Source of the DNA: Acidovorax sp.
GTDB lineage: Bacteria; Pseudomonadota; Gammaproteobacteria; Burkholderiales; Burkholderiaceae_C
Assembly: GCF_022763525.1 (NCBI RefSeq)
Contig: NZ_JALEGG010000191.1
Location: 1-38,154, forward strand
Reading direction: 5' to 3'
DNA length: 38,154 bases
The translations under genes were made by a program, and so were the position numbers. The notes beneath the pieces are model-generated. The model made no database searches, was not told the origin of the DNA, and saw nothing but the letters and a program-made list of their open reading frames with translations. This document shows positions 21,510 through 29,421 of the stretch, in pieces; within the stretch, counting starts at the first letter, position 1; the number at the start of each line of letters is the position of its first letter.

Positions 21510-22214
21510 TCAGGCCCGGCGCAGCGTGAAGGAGGGGAACCACGCGGCCAGTTGCTGCTGGTGCGCCGTGGTCAGCGCCCAGGCCGGTGCGCCAGGTGCG
21601 CGGCATTCCTGCAGCGCCCAGCGGCGAACGCCGCGCGCGGCCAGGGCTTGGGCCAGGTCCAGCAACTCATCCACACCAAACAGGCCCGCGTGCCAGGTGG
21701 TGCGGCATTCGTGGTCGGTGCCATAGGCCAGCAGCACCTCCAGCCCGGCCCAGGCGCGCGCGCCGCTGCCGGGTGTGGCGGTGATGGCGTTGTAGCGCTG
21801 CGGCAGGGCCTTGATGTCCAGACCCACCCAGTCCAGCTGCGGCAGCACGGCCGCCAGCCGCTCGGGGTACATGCCGCCGGTGTGCAGGGCGGTCTGCAGG
21901 CCCAGGCTGCGCACTGCGTTCAGCGCCACGCCCAGGCCCGCCTGCAGCGTGGGCTCGCCGCCCGAGAAAACCACGCCGTCCAGCAGGCCGCGCCGGCTTT
22001 CCAGAAACGCCAGCGCCTGCGCCCACGGCAGCGCGGGAGGCGCGGTGGCGTCCAGCAGTTCGGGGTTGTGGCAATACCCGCAGCGCCAGGGGCAACCCTG
22101 GCAATACAAAACGGCCGCGAGGCGGCCGGGGAAGTCGATGGTGGTGAGCGGTGTCATGCCGCCCAGCCGCAGCGCCGGGGCTGGCGGCGCCTCAGCAGGC
22201 GTTGCTTCCACCAC
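21510..22214 (-). CDS. nrdG: Anaerobic ribonucleotide reductase activating protein (radical SAM)
   Basis: A 234-residue radical-SAM activase that generates the glycyl radical on class III ribonucleotide reductase. The cluster motif is CPWRCGYCHN (CxxxCxxC), after GGMTPLTTIDFPGRLAAVLYC, which is typical of the NrdG2-type activases. FSGGEPTLQ is the SAM-binding GGE motif. The GTG start at 22214 overlaps the end of the glycyl-radical protein gene by 23 bases; ATG 22157 would remove conserved residues (LRLGGMTPL). The order, large NrdD, glycyl protein, NrdG, indicates one transcript. Confidence 0.9.
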   Translation of the reverse strand: MVEATPAEAPPAPALRLGGMTPLTTIDFPGRLAAVLYCQGCPWRCGYCHNPELLDATAPPALPWAQALAFLESRRGLLDGVVFSGGEPTLQAGLGVALNAVRSLGLQTALHTGGMYPERLAAVLPQLDWVGLDIKALPQRYNAITATPGSGARAWAGLEVLLAYGTDHECRTTWHAGLFGVDELLDLAQALAARGVRRWALQECRAPGAPAWALTTAHQQQLAAWFPSFTLRRA

Positions 22215-22401
22215 GCGTCTGCTCTGAAAAGAAGCGGCGCTCGGCGTGCTCGCCCTGCTTGCCGGTGTTGAAGCTGGCCACGGGGCGGTGGTAGCCCATC
22301 ACGCGGGTCCAGACCTCGCAGGGCTGGCGCTCGTCGTCGGTGAGCTGCGCGGCGGCGGCGCTGGAGATGGCGGTGTGTTCGGTGGCGAAAAAATGGCTCA
22401 T
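22192..22401 (-). CDS. Stand-alone glycyl-radical protein of class III ribonucleotide reductase
   Basis: A 69-residue protein matching only the C-terminal end of NrdD: LTDDERQPCEVWTRVMGYHRPV followed by ASFNTGKQGEHAERRFF. RVMGY is the glycyl-radical motif (candidate Gly36). The start ATG at 22401 has AAAGGA at good spacing. The large NrdD protein upstream stops before this segment, so the enzyme is in two pieces. The 98 bases between them contain a stop, a dispersed repeat and this gene's ribosome site, so it is a separate gene and not a frameshift. It probably binds the large subunit and receives the radical from NrdG, comparable in form to the spare glycyl protein GrcA of pyruvate formate-lyase, but here it seems obligatory. 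That is inference. Confidence 0.82.
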   Translation of the reverse strand: MSHFFATEHTAISSAAAAQLTDDERQPCEVWTRVMGYHRPVASFNTGKQGEHAERRFFSEQTRGGSNAC

Positions 22402-22441
22402 GTCGGATTCCTTTCGGAGGTGGTTGAATTGGTTTGCTTCT

Positions 22442-22489
22442 GTTTTGATAGCTGCCTGCGCTTGACTATCCAGCGCCAGGGCCACTTTT
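22442..22489 (+). repeat. Dispersed boundary repeat, copy 4 (between nrdD and the glycyl-radical gene)
   Basis: Reads GATAGCTGCCTGCGCTTG, ACTATC, then CAGCGCCAGGGCCACTTTTT. The hairpin is degenerate compared with copy 1. It lies in the gap between the two parts of the reductase. Confidence 0.8.
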
Positions 22490-22499
22490 TTCTCAGAAT

Positions 22500-24518
22500 C
22501 TAGGCAGCCAGACGCCGCCGCTTGGCGTCCAGCCGCTCTTCGTCGCAGCGGGGGCAGAACGGGTGCTCGCCCGCCAGGTAGCCGTGCGTGGGGCAGATGG
22601 AGAACGTGGGCGTGACGGTGATGTAGGGCAGGCGGAAGTTCGTCAGCGCGCGCTTGACCAGCTCGCGGCAGGCCGCGCCGCTGGAAACGCGCTCGCCCAT
22701 GTACAGATGCAGCACGGTGCCGCCGGTGTATTTGCCCTGCAGTGCCTCCTGCCGCATCAGCGCCTCGAACGGGTCGTCGGTGAAGCCCACGGGCAGTTGG
22801 GACGAGTTGGTGTAGTAGGGCTGCTCGGCCGTGCCCGCCTGCAGGATGGCGGGCCAGCGCTTCTTGTCTTCCTTGGCGAAGCGGTAGGTGGTGCCCTCGG
22901 CGGGCGTGGCCTCCAGGTTGTAGAGGTGGCCGGTTTCCTCCTGGAAGGCCGTCATGCGCTCGCGCACATGGTCGAGCAGGCGCACGGCCAAGCTGTGGCC
23001 GAAGTCGCTGGTGATGTCGTGCTGGTCCGCCGTGAAGTTGCGCACCATCTCGTTGATGCCGTTCACGCCCAGCGTGCTGAAGTGGTTGCGCAAGGTGCCC
23101 AGGTAGCGCTTGGTGTAGGGGAACAAGCCCTGGTCCATGAGGCGCTGGATGAGCTTGCGTTTGGTCTCCAAGCTCTGCTTGCCCAGCTCCAGGAGGCGGT
23201 CCAGCGCGGCAAACAGACCGGCTTCATCGCCCGCATGCAAATACCCGAGGCGTGCGCAGTTGATCGTCACCACGCCCAGGCTGCCCGTCTGCTCGGCGCT
23301 GCCAAAGAGGCCGTTGCCACGCTTGAGCAATTCACGCAAATCCAGCTGCAGGCGGCAGCACATGGAGCGCACCATGTTCGGCTCCAGCTCGGAGTTGATG
23401 AAGTTCTGAAAGTACGGCAGGCCGTACTTGGCCGTCATCTCGAACAGCCGCTCTGCGTTCTCGCTCTCCCACGGGAAATCCTTGGTGATGTTGTACGTGG
23501 GGATGGGGAAGGTGAACACCCGGCCCTTGGCATCGCCCGTGGTCATCACGTCGATGTAGGCACGGTTGATCAGGTCCATCTCGGCCTGCAGCTCGCCGTA
23601 GCTAAACGGCATCTCCAAGCCGCCGATCACCGGCACCTGCTCGCGCAGATCGTCAGGGCAGGTCCAGTCAAACGTGAGGTTGGTGAACGGCGTCTGCGTG
23701 CCCCAGCGCGAGGGCACGTTGAGGTTGTAGACCAGCTCCTGGATGCACTGGCGCACCTGCGCGTAGTCCATGCCGTCCTTGCGCACGAAGGGCGCCATGT
23801 AGGTGTCGAACGACGAAAACGCCTGCGCGCCTGCCCACTCGTTCTGCAGCGTGCCGAGGAAGTTCACGATCTGCCCCACGGCCGAACTCATGTGCCTGGG
23901 TGGCCCGGCCTCCACCTTGCCCGGCACGCCGTTGAGCCCCTCGTGCAGCAGCGTGCGCAGCGACCAGCCCGCGCAGTAGCCACTGAGCATGTCGAGGTCG
24001 TGGATGTGCAGGTCGCCGCTCCTGTGCGCCTCGCCGATCTCGGGCGTGTAGACGTGCGACAGCCAGTAGTTGGCCGTGACCTTGCCCGCCACGTTCAGGA
24101 TCAGCCCGCCCAGCGAGTAGCCCTGGTTGGCATTGGCGTTCACCCGCCAGTCGGCGCGCGTGAGGTATTCGTTGATGGAGCTTTCCACATCGACCAGCGT
24201 CTGCCTGTCGGCGCGTAGCGTGGCGTGCTGCTCGCGGTAGACGATGTAGGCGCGCGCGGTGGCCAGGTGGTTGGCGGCGATCAGCGTCTGCTCGGCCACG
24301 TCCTGGATCTGCTCGATGGTGGGGGCCTCGCCGTGGAAGCGGTGGATGAGCACCTTGGTGACCTGGGCGGTGAGCAGCACGGCCTCGTCCAGGGCGTACT
24401 CGCCCGTGGCGACGCCCGCGCGCAGCAGCGCATTGCGGATGCGCTCGGCATCAAAAGGAGCGCGCTGGCCGCTGCGGTCGATGACCTCGCGCGGCAGGCT
24501 GACAAGGGTGGACGCCAT
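22500..24518 (-). CDS. nrdD: Class III anaerobic ribonucleoside-triphosphate reductase, large part without glycyl motif
   Basis: A 672-residue reductase reducing ribonucleotides to deoxyribonucleotides without oxygen. An ATP-cone lies at about residues 5-95 (PREVIDRSGQRAPFDAERIR). The barrel follows with DLHIHDLDMLSGYCAGWSL, NFLGTLQNEWAGAQAF and RSMCCRLQLDL, which carries the active-site cysteine region. The C-terminus ends with the zinc segment ICPTHGYLAGEHPFCPRC, after which full-length enzymes carry the glycyl loop; here the protein stops 18 residues later and the loop is in the next gene. ATG 24518 is used; an open frame to 24581 runs into the NrdR operators. Control by NrdR and possibly FNR is visible upstream. 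Confidence 0.9.
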   Translation of the reverse strand: MASTLVSLPREVIDRSGQRAPFDAERIRNALLRAGVATGEYALDEAVLLTAQVTKVLIHRFHGEAPTIEQIQDVAEQTLIAANHLATARAYIVYREQHATLRADRQTLVDVESSINEYLTRADWRVNANANQGYSLGGLILNVAGKVTANYWLSHVYTPEIGEAHRSGDLHIHDLDMLSGYCAGWSLRTLLHEGLNGVPGKVEAGPPRHMSSAVGQIVNFLGTLQNEWAGAQAFSSFDTYMAPFVRKDGMDYAQVRQCIQELVYNLNVPSRWGTQTPFTNLTFDWTCPDDLREQVPVIGGLEMPFSYGELQAEMDLINRAYIDVMTTGDAKGRVFTFPIPTYNITKDFPWESENAERLFEMTAKYGLPYFQNFINSELEPNMVRSMCCRLQLDLRELLKRGNGLFGSAEQTGSLGVVTINCARLGYLHAGDEAGLFAALDRLLELGKQSLETKRKLIQRLMDQGLFPYTKRYLGTLRNHFSTLGVNGINEMVRNFTADQHDITSDFGHSLAVRLLDHVRERMTAFQEETGHLYNLEATPAEGTTYRFAKEDKKRWPAILQAGTAEQPYYTNSSQLPVGFTDDPFEALMRQEALQGKYTGGTVLHLYMGERVSSGAACRELVKRALTNFRLPYITVTPTFSICPTHGYLAGEHPFCPRCDEERLDAKRRRLAA

Positions 24519-24549: not shown

Positions 24550-24597
24550 ACACTACCTATGGTGTCCACGATACCCATCAAACACTATATGTAGTTT
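24550..24597 (-). promoter_or_regulatory. Two NrdR boxes upstream of nrdD
   Basis: ACACTACCTATGGTGT (24550-24565) and ACACTATATGTAGTTT (24582-24597) match the NrdR consensus (ACACwATATwTwGTGT-like). They are 16 bp apart, 32 bp start to start, which is the standard pair spacing. NrdR represses ribonucleotide reductase genes when dATP is high. Confidence 0.82.
24568..24581 (-). promoter_or_regulatory. Weak FNR-like site between the NrdR boxes
   Basis: TTGAT-GGGT-ATCGT on the minus strand matches the FNR consensus at eight of ten positions and fills the linker between the two NrdR boxes. Confidence 0.35.
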
Positions 24598-24797: not shown

Positions 24798-25226
24798 TCA
24801 AAGGCAGCCAGCGGTCTCCTCCTCTTCGATGCGGGGATAGAAGTCATGGTCTTCGCGCTGCATGCGCTCGAACACGCGGCGCAGCACCACGTTGGCCTCA
24901 TTGCGGAAAGCTTGCGCGTCGCGCCGCACGCATTCGGCCCTGTTCCAGCGCCGAGCAAACGCGTCGTACGCGCTGGCAATCGACGCCATCTCACTCTGGT
25001 ACTGGCGGCCCATGCGCGCGAGTTCGGCGTTGCCGCCGCGCTGCAATGCGGGGTACAGCACCTGGTCTTCCACGGCCAGGTGCAGCTTGATGGTGCCGCT
25101 CATCGCCACGATGCCCTGGGCGATGCCCGTGGCGTTGGCCTCGACGCCCGCATGGGCCAGTGCGCGCAGGGCAGCAATGCTGCGCAGGATGTCGGTGTGC
25201 TGGTGCTTGAACTTGTCGAGATTCAT
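24798..25226 (-). CDS. Hemerythrin HHE-domain protein
   Basis: A 142-residue four-helix protein with metal-ligand residues spaced as in hemerythrins: KHQHTDIL near the start, then IKLHLAVEDQVLYPAL (H-x3-E) and REDHDFYPRIEEEE near the end. Such di-iron proteins bind oxygen or NO, or help repair iron-sulfur centres. It lacks the N-terminal ScdA domain of the YtfE repair proteins, so it is the simple type. It starts 81 bp after the norB stop on the same strand and ends before a strong terminator, so it is most likely in the NorR-controlled NO-response transcript. An upstream start at 25268 is possible but gives a Pro-rich non-homologous extension. Confidence 0.85.
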   Translation of the reverse strand: MNLDKFKHQHTDILRSIAALRALAHAGVEANATGIAQGIVAMSGTIKLHLAVEDQVLYPALQRGGNAELARMGRQYQSEMASIASAYDAFARRWNRAECVRRDAQAFRNEANVVLRRVFERMQREDHDFYPRIEEEETAGCL

Positions 25227-25307
25227 GGTCGCGTGTCCTGGTGGGAGGGGTGAAGGTGGCGCTGCCATCGCTTGTGGCGGGCAGCGCTGAGGGATGGGCC
25301 GACAGCC

Positions 25308-27587
25308 TCAGCGGGAGGCCCGCGCCAGCGGGGCGCCAGCGGCTTGCGGCAGACGCGAGCCGAACAGCCCGCTCACCACTTGCCAGGCCATGGCCAGCGC
25401 GCCGACGATGAAGACCACGTCGCCAAAGGTGCGCACCCAGCGCAGGGTCTGCATGAAGGGCTGCTGCATGAAGGCTTCGCCCCGGGCGTACCACAGGCCT
25501 TCGCTCACGCTGGCGTGGAACTGGAACAGGCCGATGGGCAGCAGGCTGGTGGCAATCATCAGCACCAGGCCGGCGTTGAGCCACCAGAAGCCCGTCTTCA
25601 TGATCCGTTCGCTGAACACCAATTGCGGGCGGATGTAGCGCAGCACCAGCAGCGTGAAGCCCAGCGCCAGGAAGCCATACACACCGAACAGCGCAGCGTG
25701 AGCATGCACCGGCGTGGTGTTGAGGCCCTGCAGGTAATACAGCGCAATCGGCGGGTTGATCATGAAGCCGAAGACGCCCGCGCCCAGCATGTTCCAGAAG
25801 GCCACGGCCACGAAGCACATGAGGGGCCACTTGAGGTTGGCCATCCACTTCGCGCGGTGCTGCAGGCGCCAGTGTTCCCAGGCCTCATGGCCCAGCACCA
25901 CCAGGGGCACCACTTCCAGCGCACTGAACGATGCGCCCACAGCCATCACCGGCGTGGTGGTGCCCGCGAAGTACAGGTGATGGAAGGTGCCGGGCACGCC
26001 GCCCAGCATGAACAGCGATGCCGAGGCCAGGCTGGCCGCCGTGGCCATGCGGGGCGACACGAGGCCCAGCGTTGAGAAGATGAAGGCCAGCGCCGTGGTG
26101 GCGAACACTTCAAAGAAGCCCTCGACCCACAGGTGCACCACCCACCAGCGCCAGTACTCCATCACCGACAGGTGGGTGCGCTCGCCGTAGAAGAAGCCCG
26201 CACCGTAGAACAGGCCGATGGCCACCACCGAGGCGGTGAGCAGCGCCAGCAGGTTCTTGTCGCCGGGCTGGCGGAACGCGGGCACGATGCCGCGCAGCAT
26301 CAGCACCAGCCAGAACGCCACGCCAGTGAATTTGCCGATCTGCCACAGCCGGCCCAGGTCCACGTATTCATAGCCCTGGTGGCCGAGCCAGAAGTTCCAC
26401 TCCGGCGGCATGATCTGCGCAATGGCCAGGTAGTTGCCGGCGAACGAGCCGACGACGACCACCACCAGCGCCCAGAAGAGGATGTCGACGCCCAGCTTCT
26501 GGTAGGCCGGGTCCTTGCCGCCATGGATCAGCGGCGCGAGGAACAACCCTGCGGCCAGGAAGCCGGTGGCGATCCAGAACAGCGCGCTCTGGATGTGCCA
26601 GGTGCGCACCAGCGCATAGGGAAACCACTGCGACACGTTGATGCCATAGAACTGCTGGCCTTCCACCGTGTAGTGCGCGGTGAAGCCGCCCAGCATGACC
26701 TGGAAGCTGAACAGCGCCACGATGAGGAACAGGTATTTGCCCAGGGCGCGCTGCGACGGCGTGAGCGGCACACGCGAGAGCGGGTCGTGCTTCGGCGGCT
26801 CGGGGTCGGTCTCGTCGTGTTTGCGCAAAAACGCCCAGCCCCAGACGAGGAAGCCCACACCGGCCATCATCACGACCACGCTCATCACTGACCAGACCAT
26901 GTTCTCGCCCGTGGGCTTGTTGCCGATCAGCGGCTCGTGGGGCCAGTTGTTGGTGTACGTTGCCGTGGTGCCAGGCCGTTCGGTGGCGGCGGCCCAGGCC
27001 GTCCAGAAGAAGAAGCCCGTCATCTGCGCCCGGCGTTCGCGGCTGGGCAGGGTGTTCTCCTTCATGGCGAAGTGTTCGCGGGTCTTCTGCAGCGCGGGCG
27101 CGTCGCTGAAGAGCTGGTCGTAGTAGTGGGCCGTGAGGGCAATGGCATCGGCCCGCGTGGTGGACACCGTGGCCACGCCCGTTTCGGGGTTGTAGGTGTT
27201 GGTGCGGTACTCCGTCTTCAAGCGGTCGCGCAGCACCGCCTTGGCGGCGGCGTCCAGCTCGGCAAACGACTTGCCGTGCGCGCGCTCGGCCGCCACTTCC
27301 AGCCAGTTCTCCAGCTCGCGGTGCAGCCAGTCGGCCGTCCAGTCGGGTGCCTGGTAGGCACCGTGGCCCCAGATGGAACCCAGCTGCATGCCCCCCACCG
27401 ATTGCCAGGCGGTCTGCCCGTCCAGGATGCTGTCGTGCGTGAACAGCACCTCCTCGCCGGCCGTGGCGAACTTGGCCGGGATGGGCGGCGCCGTGCGATA
27501 GACCTCGGCGCCGTAGTAGCCCAGCAGGCTGAAGGTGACGATGAGCACGCCGATCAGCGTGAACCAAAGCTTGCGGTAGTTACCCAT
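25308..27587 (-). CDS. norB: Quinol-dependent nitric oxide reductase (qNor)
   Basis: A 759-residue integral membrane enzyme reducing two NO to N2O with quinol electrons. Its length and the fused N-terminal cytochrome-c-like periplasmic part (about residues 35-220, without a CXXCH motif) mark the quinol type rather than NorBC. Catalytic-core features are YWRWWVVHLWVEGFFEVFA, GTFHHLYFAG and NTTPVHAHAALFGVYGF, which carry the haem and Fe-B histidines and the conserved glutamates. About 14 hydrophobic segments are present. ATG 27587 has GAGGAGG just upstream. It diverges from norR, with a sigma-54 promoter and three NorR sites between them; it detoxifies NO or completes denitrification. Confidence 0.95.
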   Translation of the reverse strand: MGNYRKLWFTLIGVLIVTFSLLGYYGAEVYRTAPPIPAKFATAGEEVLFTHDSILDGQTAWQSVGGMQLGSIWGHGAYQAPDWTADWLHRELENWLEVAAERAHGKSFAELDAAAKAVLRDRLKTEYRTNTYNPETGVATVSTTRADAIALTAHYYDQLFSDAPALQKTREHFAMKENTLPSRERRAQMTGFFFWTAWAAATERPGTTATYTNNWPHEPLIGNKPTGENMVWSVMSVVVMMAGVGFLVWGWAFLRKHDETDPEPPKHDPLSRVPLTPSQRALGKYLFLIVALFSFQVMLGGFTAHYTVEGQQFYGINVSQWFPYALVRTWHIQSALFWIATGFLAAGLFLAPLIHGGKDPAYQKLGVDILFWALVVVVVGSFAGNYLAIAQIMPPEWNFWLGHQGYEYVDLGRLWQIGKFTGVAFWLVLMLRGIVPAFRQPGDKNLLALLTASVVAIGLFYGAGFFYGERTHLSVMEYWRWWVVHLWVEGFFEVFATTALAFIFSTLGLVSPRMATAASLASASLFMLGGVPGTFHHLYFAGTTTPVMAVGASFSALEVVPLVVLGHEAWEHWRLQHRAKWMANLKWPLMCFVAVAFWNMLGAGVFGFMINPPIALYYLQGLNTTPVHAHAALFGVYGFLALGFTLLVLRYIRPQLVFSERIMKTGFWWLNAGLVLMIATSLLPIGLFQFHASVSEGLWYARGEAFMQQPFMQTLRWVRTFGDVVFIVGALAMAWQVVSGLFGSRLPQAAGAPLARASR

Positions 27588-27660
27588 GGCGGGCCTCCTC
27601 TTTCGGCAGAACAGCAGTAACAACAACGGGGCGACGCCAGCGCGTGCTGGCTGTGCGGGT

Positions 27661-27682
27661 GGCCGCCGCCTTCGGGGCGGCC
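27661..27682 (-). other. GC-rich hairpin in the norB 5' leader
   Basis: GGCCGCC (27661-27667) pairs with GGCGGCC (27676-27682) around a GCCTTCGG loop. It lies within the roughly 150-base leader predicted from the sigma-54 promoter. Its role is unknown. Confidence 0.45.
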
Positions 27683-27748
27683 TGGGGGCAGGGTGGTCTT
27701 AAGGTCATGGTGGGGATGGATGGGTGGATCAGGTTTGCTCCTTACTTC

Positions 27749-27763
27749 GCAAGCCCCAGGCCA
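27749..27763 (-). promoter_or_regulatory. Sigma-54 promoter of norB
   Basis: On the minus strand TGGCCTGGGGCTTGC has the GG and GC of the -24/-12 elements ten bases apart and matches TGGCAC-N5-TTGC well. It lies 162 bp upstream of the norB start and downstream of the three NorR sites, as an enhancer-dependent promoter should. Confidence 0.72.
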
Positions 27764-27792
27764 GGCACGTATCCCTTTCAAAACAAGCACTT

Positions 27793-27808
27793 ACACCGAA
27801 CACGGTGT
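27793..27808. promoter_or_regulatory. Inverted repeat overlapping the first NorR site
   Basis: ACACCG-AACA-CGGTGT is a perfect 6-4-6 inverted repeat that overlaps the first GGT-N7-ACC element. It may extend the operator or bind another factor. Confidence 0.35.
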
Positions 27809-27861
27809 TTATTACCCTCGATGAATCGGGTTTAATTCACCCCAACGAGGTAATAAAAACC
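27804..27861. promoter_or_regulatory. Three NorR binding sites (GGT-N7-ACC)
   Basis: GGT-GTTTATT-ACC (27804-27816), GGT-TTAATTC-ACC (27829-27841) and GGT-AATAAAA-ACC (27849-27861) fit the Ralstonia NorR element exactly. The last ends on the base before the norR ATG, which suggests that NorR limits its own synthesis while activating norB. Confidence 0.85.
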
Positions 27862-29421
27862 ATGGACCACAGTCCCCTACTGGCCGACCTGGCCACCGAC
27901 CTGCCCCAGGCCGTGCGCCTGCAGCGGCTGGCCGATCACCTGCGCACCCGCTTTCATTGCGGCGCCGTGGCCTTGCTGCAGCTGGAGGAGGGCCATCTGC
28001 GCCCCCTGGCGGTGGAAGGCCTGGTGCGCGAGGCCCTGGGGCGGCGCTTTGCGGTCAGCCAGCACCCCCGGCTGGCGGCTATCCTGGCGCGCCGCGAAGT
28101 GACCTGCTTCGACCACGACAGCACCTTGCCCGACCCCTACGACGGCCTGCTCGACACCCTGGTGGGCGAACCCCTGCCCGTGCACGACTGCATGGGAGTG
28201 AGCCTGTGGGTGGACGGCCAGCCCTGGGGCGTGCTGACGCTCGATGCACTGCAGACCGGCACGTTTGGCGAGGCGTCCCGCGCCGCACTGGCCGACTGCA
28301 AGGTGCTGGTGGAGGCGGCCGTACGCATCTCGCGGCTGGAGCGCGAGGTGCAGGCGCTGCGCAATGCGCCCCCCGCGCGCGGCCCCGACGACGAGCGCGC
28401 CCCGCGCGCGGGTGACGCCGACCTGGACATCGTCGGCCAGAGCGCGCCCCTGCTGCGGCTGCTGCACGAGCTGGAGGTCGTGGCGGGCTCGGATCTGCCC
28501 GTGCTGCTGCTGGGCGAAACCGGCGTGGGCAAGGAGCTTTTCGCCCGCCGGCTGCACCGGCAGTCGCCGCGCGCTGCCCGCCCGCTGGTTCACGTGAATT
28601 GCGCGGCGCTGCCCGAGTCGCTGGCCGAAAGCGAGCTCTTCGGCCACGTGCGCGGCGCGTTCTCCGGCGCGGTGACCGACCGCCCTGGCCGCTTCGAGGC
28701 CGCCGAGGGCGGCACGCTGTTCCTCGACGAGGTGGGCGAGCTCCCGTTGGCCGTGCAGGCCAAGCTGCTGCGCACGCTGCAGAACGGCGAAATCCAGCGC
28801 CTGGGGGCCGACCGGCCGCGCCGTGTGGACGTGCGCGTGATCGCCGCCACCAACCGCAACCTGCGCGAGCAGGTGACTGCGGGCGCCTTCCGCGCAGACC
28901 TGTACCACCGGCTGTCGGTGTACCCCGTGCCCATCCCGCCGCTGCGCGAGCGCGGCAACGATGTGCTGTTGATCGCGGGGCGCTTTCTGGAGCTCAACCG
29001 CGCCCGCCTGGGCCTGCGCAGCCTGCGGCTGTCCACCGCCGCGCAGGACGCGCTGCGCCGCTACCCCTGGCCCGGCAACGTCCGCGAGCTGGAGCATGTG
29101 ATCAGCCGCGCGGCGCTCAAGGCGCTGAGCCGCGGCGTGAACCGCACCGATATCGTGACGCTGGAGGCTGCCCTGCTCGACCTGGATGCCGAGGGTGGCG
29201 GCATGCCTCGCACCCCGCTGGCAGCTGCGGCTGCAGAAGAATCGCCCGTGCCCGCCACGGCCGGCGGCCCGCTGCGCGACGCCGTGGACGCCTGCCAGCG
29301 CCAGGCCATCGCGCAGGCCCTGGCCCGCCACCAGGGCAACTGGGCTCGGGCCGCACGCGACCTGGAAGTGGACGCCAGCAACCTGCACAAACTGGCCCGG
29401 CGGCTGGGCATCAAACCATGA
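27862..29421 (+). CDS. norR: NO-responsive sigma-54-dependent activator NorR
   Basis: A 519-residue enhancer-binding protein. The N-terminal GAF domain (about 20-180) keeps the iron-site residues of E. coli NorR: LPDPYDG, VHDCMG and TLDAL. The AAA+ domain (about 190-420) has Walker A GETGVGKE at about 218, the sigma-54 contact loop GAFSGA at about 265 (usually GAFTGA) and DEVGELPL. A Fis-type helix-turn-helix ends the protein ([19 protein letters not shown]). The ATG at 27862 is used; the frame extends upstream across the operators but without homology. NO binding to the GAF iron frees the ATPase to activate norB. Confidence 0.93.

Follow-up and report, generated by a model that had tools for sequence, protein, structure and literature searches.

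Class III ribonucleotide reductases are presented, in the sections of the reviews and structure papers that we consulted, with the glycyl radical on the catalytic chain itself. The canonical NrdD/NrdG systems of phage T4, T. maritima and Prevotella copri comprise a barrel, finger-loop cysteines (a motif described in passages of PMC9669993), a zinc segment, an RVxGY-type loop and NrdG, with an ATP-cone in P. copri, and all of these are also found at the nrdD locus described here, which lies in a 38,154-nucleotide stretch of Acidovorax sp. DNA (contig NZ_JALEGG010000191.1; "the window" means this whole stretch). Unlike in the canonical enzymes, the radical loop in the window has a chain to itself, and the division falls between the zinc segment and the loop. 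Short stand-alone glycyl-radical proteins are known as spare parts of pyruvate formate-lyase, namely GrcA/YfiD of E. coli and Y06I of phage T4; according to excerpts of PMC8683613, YfiD has a disordered N-terminus, which may be compared with the variable N-terminus of the window-type small protein, T4 Y06I is phage-borne, and the authors suggest that glycyl-radical enzymes besides pyruvate formate-lyase may have spare parts too. With GrcA and Y06I, however, the part comes into use after damage to an enzyme that has a glycine of its own, whereas the large chain in the window has no such glycine and its small partner belongs to the NRDD rather than the Gly_radical family. NrdJa and NrdJb of Pseudomonas aeruginosa are also a reductase in two consecutive gene products (passages of PMC4009431 and PMC4860495), but one of class II, dependent on B12 and without a glycyl radical. 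Split phage nrdD genes likewise have their coding sequence in pieces, mostly because of introns, inteins and endonuclease genes, with one unexplained case in PMC3653736 (excerpts of PMC3653736 and PMC12363816); in the window, by contrast, both pieces are complete genes and the 98-nucleotide spacer between them is too short for an intron, intein or endonuclease element. Among the titles, abstract beginnings and passages searched, a set to which Siedow 1999 did not belong, we found no class III reductase with a separate bacterial radical-loop protein, nor a phage copy of one.

The gene order on the minus strand of the window is nrdD, a 69-residue gene and nrdG, with the following features:

22500..24518, minus strand: nrdD large chain, 672 residues (Pfam NRDD and ATP-cone, NF006126, TIGR02487)
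22402..22499, minus strand: 98-nucleotide spacer from the nrdD stop codon to the small-gene start (from the sequence)
22409..22414, minus strand: AAAGGA, ribosome-site-like, 7 nucleotides 5′ of the small-gene ATG (from the sequence, scored)
22192..22401, minus strand: small glycyl-radical protein gene, 69 residues (Pfam NRDD 530–562, conserved core, pN below pS)
21510..22214, minus strand: nrdG activase of NrdG2 type, radical SAM, 234 residues from GTG (TIGR02495, Pfam Radical_SAM)

The nrdG gene overlaps the small gene by 23 nucleotides, GTG being its putative start codon, and its product scores 183.3 bits with TIGR02495 (NrdG2), above the cut-off, and also matches Pfam Radical_SAM. A scan of the 98-nucleotide spacer listed no promoter-like or terminator-like site.

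The two proteins divide one enzyme between them. The large protein matches positions 2–537 of the 562 in the Pfam NRDD model (PF13597, 580.7 bits), scores 1126.5 bits with NF006126, matches TIGR02487, has an ATP-cone at residues 11–99 (Pfam) and, as a predicted model, aligns with class III reductase structures. Its finger loop MCCR (386–389), C182 and the zinc segment C642/H645/C655/C658 are invariant in a 36-sequence alignment that includes the window; C182 corresponds in that alignment to the first-strand cysteine, and zinc binding is predicted. The chain ends with CPRCDEERLDAKRRRLAA, 14 residues past the last zinc cysteine, and there is no RVxGY glycyl motif anywhere in its 672 residues. 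It therefore has the catalytic domain, cysteine motifs, zinc segment and accompanying nrdG gene of an NrdD, and lacks only the C-terminal RVxGY on the same chain. The small protein, for which PF13597 is the only Pfam family at E ≤ 0.01, matches positions 530–562 of the same model, so that the two complementary matches make up one complete NrdD. It carries CEVWTRVMGYHRPV, with an RVMGY motif in which Gly36 (codon 22294–22296) is the expected radical site, and Arg25, Cys28 and Arg33 are conserved. By comparison with the Prevotella copri NrdD, the division point lies within the glycyl-radical domain and separates the zinc half of that domain from the radical loop. A sequence-only reading of this DNA had described a 672-residue NrdD that ends past its zinc segment without RVxGY, followed by a gene for the motif and tail with its own ribosome site; both open reading frames lie where it placed them and both observations stand. 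Its broader statement, that the radical domain is on a separate protein, holds for the radical loop and not for the zinc half, which stays on the large chain.

The small protein is well conserved. In 98 small-protein rows, chosen by the motif [RS].[MVTCS]G[YF].RP, an R at −8 and a C at −5 from the RVMGY arginine are fixed in all 98, as are N, GK, E, R and F on the C-terminal side, all of them outside the selecting pattern; the N-terminus is variable. The mean rate of nonsynonymous polymorphism (pN) in the 40-codon core of the gene is 0.030 as against 0.253 for synonymous sites (pS), in 14 same-genus comparisons that are not independent. Because 24 of 47 same-genus genomes have the small gene, and because pN lies far below pS in the core, the gene is not a chance reading frame. 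We are highly confident that the window pair is an obligate two-chain class III ribonucleotide reductase. The sequences themselves show that the labour is divided, that the division is conserved, that each part has translation signals of its own and that in some genomes the parts are encoded at different places; from these we infer docking of the two chains, radical transfer and their obligate dependence on each other.

The split is widespread. Counts are genomes with the feature over genomes searched, with the Acidovorax genome included and some genomes shared between samples. In the family sample NRDD was found in 45/299 genomes, 43 of them split, one fused and one a scrap (among the 43, one large gene is fragmented and one has an internal stop). 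The class sample has it in 38/369 (28 split, 7 fused, 3 partial; two of the split large genes are in contig fragments and one is in two stretches of one frame), and the phylum sample in 57/398, with 15 split, 41 fused (mostly in families f192, f193 and f200) and one partial. The survey that the earlier reading had proposed, for NrdD without RVxGY beside a short reading frame, finds the split in most NrdD-bearing genomes of the family and class samples. In a protein database clustered at 90%, 5,925 of 5,926 candidates of about 38–120 residues match the small protein at E ≤ 1e-3, the clusters listed being the best 120. The 80 named loci are the best of 582 related stretches; among them the split is found in Flavobacterium, Algoriphagus, Sulfuricurvum, Campylobacter concisus, Akkermansia and Lentisphaeria as well as Pseudomonas, Stutzerimonas, Duganella and Acidovorax, and Cupriavidus necator H16 pHG1 has the same split, with proteins of 676 and 66 residues followed by NrdG. 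It occurs in complete plasmid records and in several phyla.

Some individual loci depart from the usual arrangement. At G636:C1:2564782-2565765 the large gene is down to two matching pieces and the small gene is intact. In Bradyrhizobium japonicum plasmid pS11L-3 (L020) the large-chain match begins at residue 305, the large gene is unannotated and an IS3 transposase lies upstream, so that nrdD is probably interrupted there. Allochromatium tepidum pAt1 (L273) and A. vinosum pALVIN01 (L025) have a plasmid-borne small nrdD gene with no annotated nrdG and no large gene nearby, and a search of the whole of pALVIN01 gave the small match only. The NrdD open frame of L099 (G180:C2:195225-200162) is 1021 residues long and includes, near NRDD position 157, about 310 additional residues that may be an intein-like insertion.

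Several features of these loci indicate that the two parts are made separately. Scanning of 109 loci, among which a few near-duplicates remain, gave 96 with both parts as separate genes on the same strand, 7 fused and 6 without a match to one part. First, the reading frame of the small gene, counted from that of the large gene, is 0, 1 or 2 in 15, 33 and 48 of the 96 split loci, and the large gene stops at TGA, TAA or TAG in 75, 11 and 10, so that neither readthrough nor one frameshift rule can join the pairs. Second, a start with at least 4 bases of ribosome-site-like match is present in 94 of the 96 small genes, starts having been chosen partly by that criterion. Third, the genes can be far apart. 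In genome G995 (L104) the small gene and nrdG both lie upstream of nrdD, at distances of about 9 kb and 8.4 kb, and the intervening stretch holds hemN-like, regulator-like and further genes, some on the opposite strand (named by reading). In Campylobacter sp. G1080, contig 39 has nrdD, whereas the small gene and nrdG share contig 53. Sulfuricurvum (L112) has its genes in the order nrdD, nrdG, cytochrome-like gene, small gene, and L351 in the order small gene, nrdD, nrdG. Since all three frames occur, and since the genes may be about 9 kb or a contig apart, the parts must act in trans. In an Arcobacteraceae locus (L117:5091-5913), a proteasome-assembly-chaperone-like gene and a NifU_N gene separate nrdD from the small gene. 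The small gene and nrdG coding sequences overlap in all 8 annotated records that list both, and in G995 and G1080 the two stay paired away from nrdD, L112 being an exception; that the small gene is kept with nrdG fits the small chain as the substrate of NrdG. Taken together, the two-chain class III reductase is widespread and conserved, and its parts very probably act in trans.

The Acidovorax genome (4.87 Mb, 307 contigs, 95.6% complete) is consistent with this. A search of it for NRDD gave just the two split parts and no second or full-length NrdD, and a search for PF01228 (Gly_radical, the family of pyruvate formate-lyase and GrcA) gave zero matches; it has two PF02867 reductases, which are of another class or classes. 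The earlier claim of an obligate two-subunit enzyme whose radical part acts in trans is well supported, there being no second NrdD found, broad conservation, three frames and unlinked genes. Either a full-length NrdD in the genome or a break confined to this strain had been named as grounds for giving the claim up, and we found neither.

The structural comparison agrees with the split and is not proof of it. Predicted models of the window large chain and of a naturally fused relative (L140) were compared with known structures, and the aligned range of the large chain is shorter than that of the fused model for 4coi, 4coj, 4col, 4com, 4u3e, 1h79, 1h7a, 1hk8 and 9d3x; the predicted large chain aligns to 611 as against 631 in 4coi, and to 569 as against 589 in 1h7a. 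For 8p2s and other entries without an ordered loop, both models stop early. The last 42 residues of L140 have a predicted local distance difference test score (pLDDT) below 50, so its alignment across the radical loop depends in part on residues that are poorly predicted.

Function in vivo is suggested by earlier genetics. According to passages of PMC2864759, which cites Siedow 1999 and Cramm 2009, nrdDG of C. necator H16 is essential for complete denitrification, and a strain that lacks the plasmid shows poor growth on nitrate, which vitamin B12 improves. H16 being among the split cases, a split enzyme is very probably functional in vivo. The same source, in the part seen, gives the C. metallidurans NrdDG as Rmet_5137 and Rmet_5139; in a C. 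metallidurans record without locus tags the small gene sits between nrdD and nrdG, which would explain the skipped locus number.

Several points weigh against an obligate two-chain enzyme. The H16 genetics is second-hand and concerns nrdD and nrdG rather than the small gene, and no biochemistry of a large and small pair was found in the literature searched. A fused NrdD copy missed in an assembly that is 95.6% complete is conceivable, and the two PF02867 reductases mean that the class III enzyme is not the sole reductase of the cell. The fused form is the commoner one phylum-wide (41/57). Finally, the aligned ranges of the two structural models are equal for 1h78 and 1h7b (both to 587) and close for 8p23 (716 and 729), which is why the structures are not decisive.

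A working scheme for the two chains can be proposed. The large chain carries three elements, namely the ATP-cone, the barrel in which the reacting cysteines lie, and the zinc half of the radical domain; the small chain carries the radical loop and tail alone. NrdG would act on the small chain, abstracting hydrogen from its Gly36, and the radical-bearing loop would then enter the large chain's open barrel next to the MCCR finger loop and there form the thiyl radical that starts NTP reduction. A small chain cleaved by oxygen, or one exposed to dATP, could also depart and make room for another; departure under dATP is suggested because dATP already disorders the radical domain of the fused Prevotella enzyme. 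Carried further, the small chain may be an exchangeable radical cartridge, such that small chains cleaved by oxygen or released by dATP give way to fresh ones on a large chain that is kept, while phages and prophages bring the small gene alone and thereby refill host reductases with radical subunits during anaerobic infection. We put this forward tentatively, as a possibility that falls somewhat short of probable.

Extra and viral copies of the small gene make more plausible the exchange after oxygen damage that the earlier reading had proposed. Three genomes have, in addition to the operon copy, a second small gene that lies away from the operon among phage-like genes: in G313 it is near genes for single-strand-binding and RecT-like proteins, in G1077 (Arcobacteraceae) beside XhlA/holin-like and reverse-transcriptase genes, and in G1083 (C. 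concisus) beside an endolysin gene, with identities to the operon copies of 50/55, 47/52 and 37/56, respectively. Viral contigs gave 174 pattern matches, of which 152 encode a relative of the small protein. Of these 152 loci 80 were fetched (L192–L271); the motif is present in 80/80, with 60 distinct 36-residue cores. When 45 of the 80 were searched along the whole record (near-copies and most short contigs being left out), 44 had the small gene alone and one had both parts, although a lone small gene does not prove the large gene absent because contigs may be fragments. Phage structural or packaging genes, such as those for tape measure, tail fibre, portal, terminase and head protease, lie near the small gene in 8 of 10 viral loci checked with PHROGs (L195, L198, L210, L213, L216, L221, L222 and L223); L233 has replication genes alone and L247 no PHROGs match. 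Annotated phage genomes gave just two weak matches in 50,697 records. A scan of viral contigs for the large chain found it at 72 loci, of which a rule classed 24 as split; 18 are fused, 28 other and 2 cut. The rule calls L296 split though its end resembles the "other" type, and the small gene is visible in the fetched flank of 8 of the 24. Some viruses thus carry the pair, and many viral contigs carry the small gene only. The extra and viral small genes are candidate spare parts for host NrdD.

A separate observation concerns the viral large chains. In L285, L287, L292–L294, L296–L299, L301 and others the viral NrdD ends in a thioredoxin- or glutaredoxin-like stretch (APTL, by eye), so that the radical loop is not C-terminal there.

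The alternative that survives best is that the chains bind permanently without exchange, the split being a neutral gene fission that has been re-fused in some lineages. Its basis lies in the history of the gene. Trees were built from 52 rows, or from 138 rows thinned from 174 after identical rows were merged, with seven loci excluded beforehand as fragments or distant and four for want of a large match, and with three fused rows as outgroup, of which L092 is on a long branch. They require at least four changes of split or fused state and place fused groups inside the split clade, so fission and fusion both look tolerated. Uniting every split row in one clade is rejected (p 0.00014), and a position of the fused alphaproteobacterial rows outside is disfavoured (AU test, p 0.012; the groups were named after the tree was seen). 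The true fusions near the window's type are L023, L030 and a clade of L105 with L140–L148 and L160. In Acidiphilium (L023) the single fused chain has eight extra linker residues and keeps the small protein's CEVWTRVMGYHRP, and so appears to be a re-fusion. Spacing is ordinary in L030 and in the fused alphaproteobacterial group; the alphaproteobacterial rows share it with the outgroup, which would point to retained fusion, the reading that the AU test disfavours. One split followed by three re-fusions would be the simplest account of the trees. Long open frames in the family sample had also suggested re-fused genes; these candidates were rejected, since a stop codon lies between the parts. Against permanent binding, the extra small genes of three genomes and the lone small genes of viral records (44/45) make little sense unless the product can enter ready-made large chains. 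We regard permanent binding as possible and rather doubtful.

Far less probable is that the small protein serves some other glycyl-radical enzyme, pyruvate formate-lyase for example, as a spare part, with the large chain dead or non-radical. Its size and isolated radical loop resemble GrcA (as described in part of PMC8683613), and as a short stand-alone glycyl-loop protein of 69 residues with RVMGY it is of the GrcA/YfiD kind; but it is not in the PF01228 family, its Pfam match being NRDD, the genome has no PF01228 match, the large chain retains its active-site cysteines, and no enzyme with a radical glycine of its own, that is no full-length NrdD, was found for it to serve. The small protein works like GrcA in part, outside the GrcA family. 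It is more improbable still that a single chain is produced after all by stop-codon readthrough, frameshifting, splicing or an intein. The parts do share a frame in 15/96 loci, and in the congeneric G978 (L111) and G1045 (L352), of a far NrdD type with an RRITGY motif, they are divided by one in-frame stop and then an ATG behind AAAGGG. Against this, 81/96 are out of frame with varied stop codons, 94/96 small genes have the ribosome-site-like start (partly chosen for it, as noted), and some pairs are unlinked. The G978 and G1045 pair, counted as split in the phylum sample, looks like a separate second origin of the split, far from the main clade. That a sequencing error or recent mutation broke a normally single-chain gene in this strain can be practically discarded, for although both pieces fit one Pfam model end to end, the split recurs in 24/47 same-genus genomes (small gene), 43/45 of the family, complete plasmids and several phyla, with pN far below pS.

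The nrdD locus has further features around it in the window. Upstream of nrdD are two palindromes resembling a consensus that we take to be that of the NrdR box:

24550..24565, minus strand: NrdR-box-like palindrome 1, 2 mismatches, upstream of nrdD
24582..24597, minus strand: NrdR-box-like palindrome 2, 1 mismatch, 32 bp from palindrome 1

Such pairs number 0.1 on average in 10 shuffles of the window. A 31-bp NrdR-box-like pair also precedes the unlinked small gene–nrdG operon of L104, where it is weak evidence on its own because shuffles of L104 yield 0.9 such pairs. Beside nrdD, at 24798–29421, lie genes for a hemerythrin-like protein, a NorB-type nitric oxide reductase and a sigma-54 activator with a GAF domain, which form a denitrification neighbourhood.

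The two-chain form has been hidden by annotation, because NCBI names the small protein "nrdD" and PHROGs files the related phage family phrog_4132 under unknown function. In relatives of Pseudomonas, Cupriavidus, Flavobacterium, Campylobacter and Akkermansia, it makes radical installation, docking, oxygen damage and allosteric control separable by mixing parts. The finding bears on the question, raised in the part of PMC8683613 seen, of spare parts beyond pyruvate formate-lyase. The phage data are its most interesting extension, with the phage role putative; if it holds, a lone viral small gene would be a phage-borne spare part for ribonucleotide reductase.

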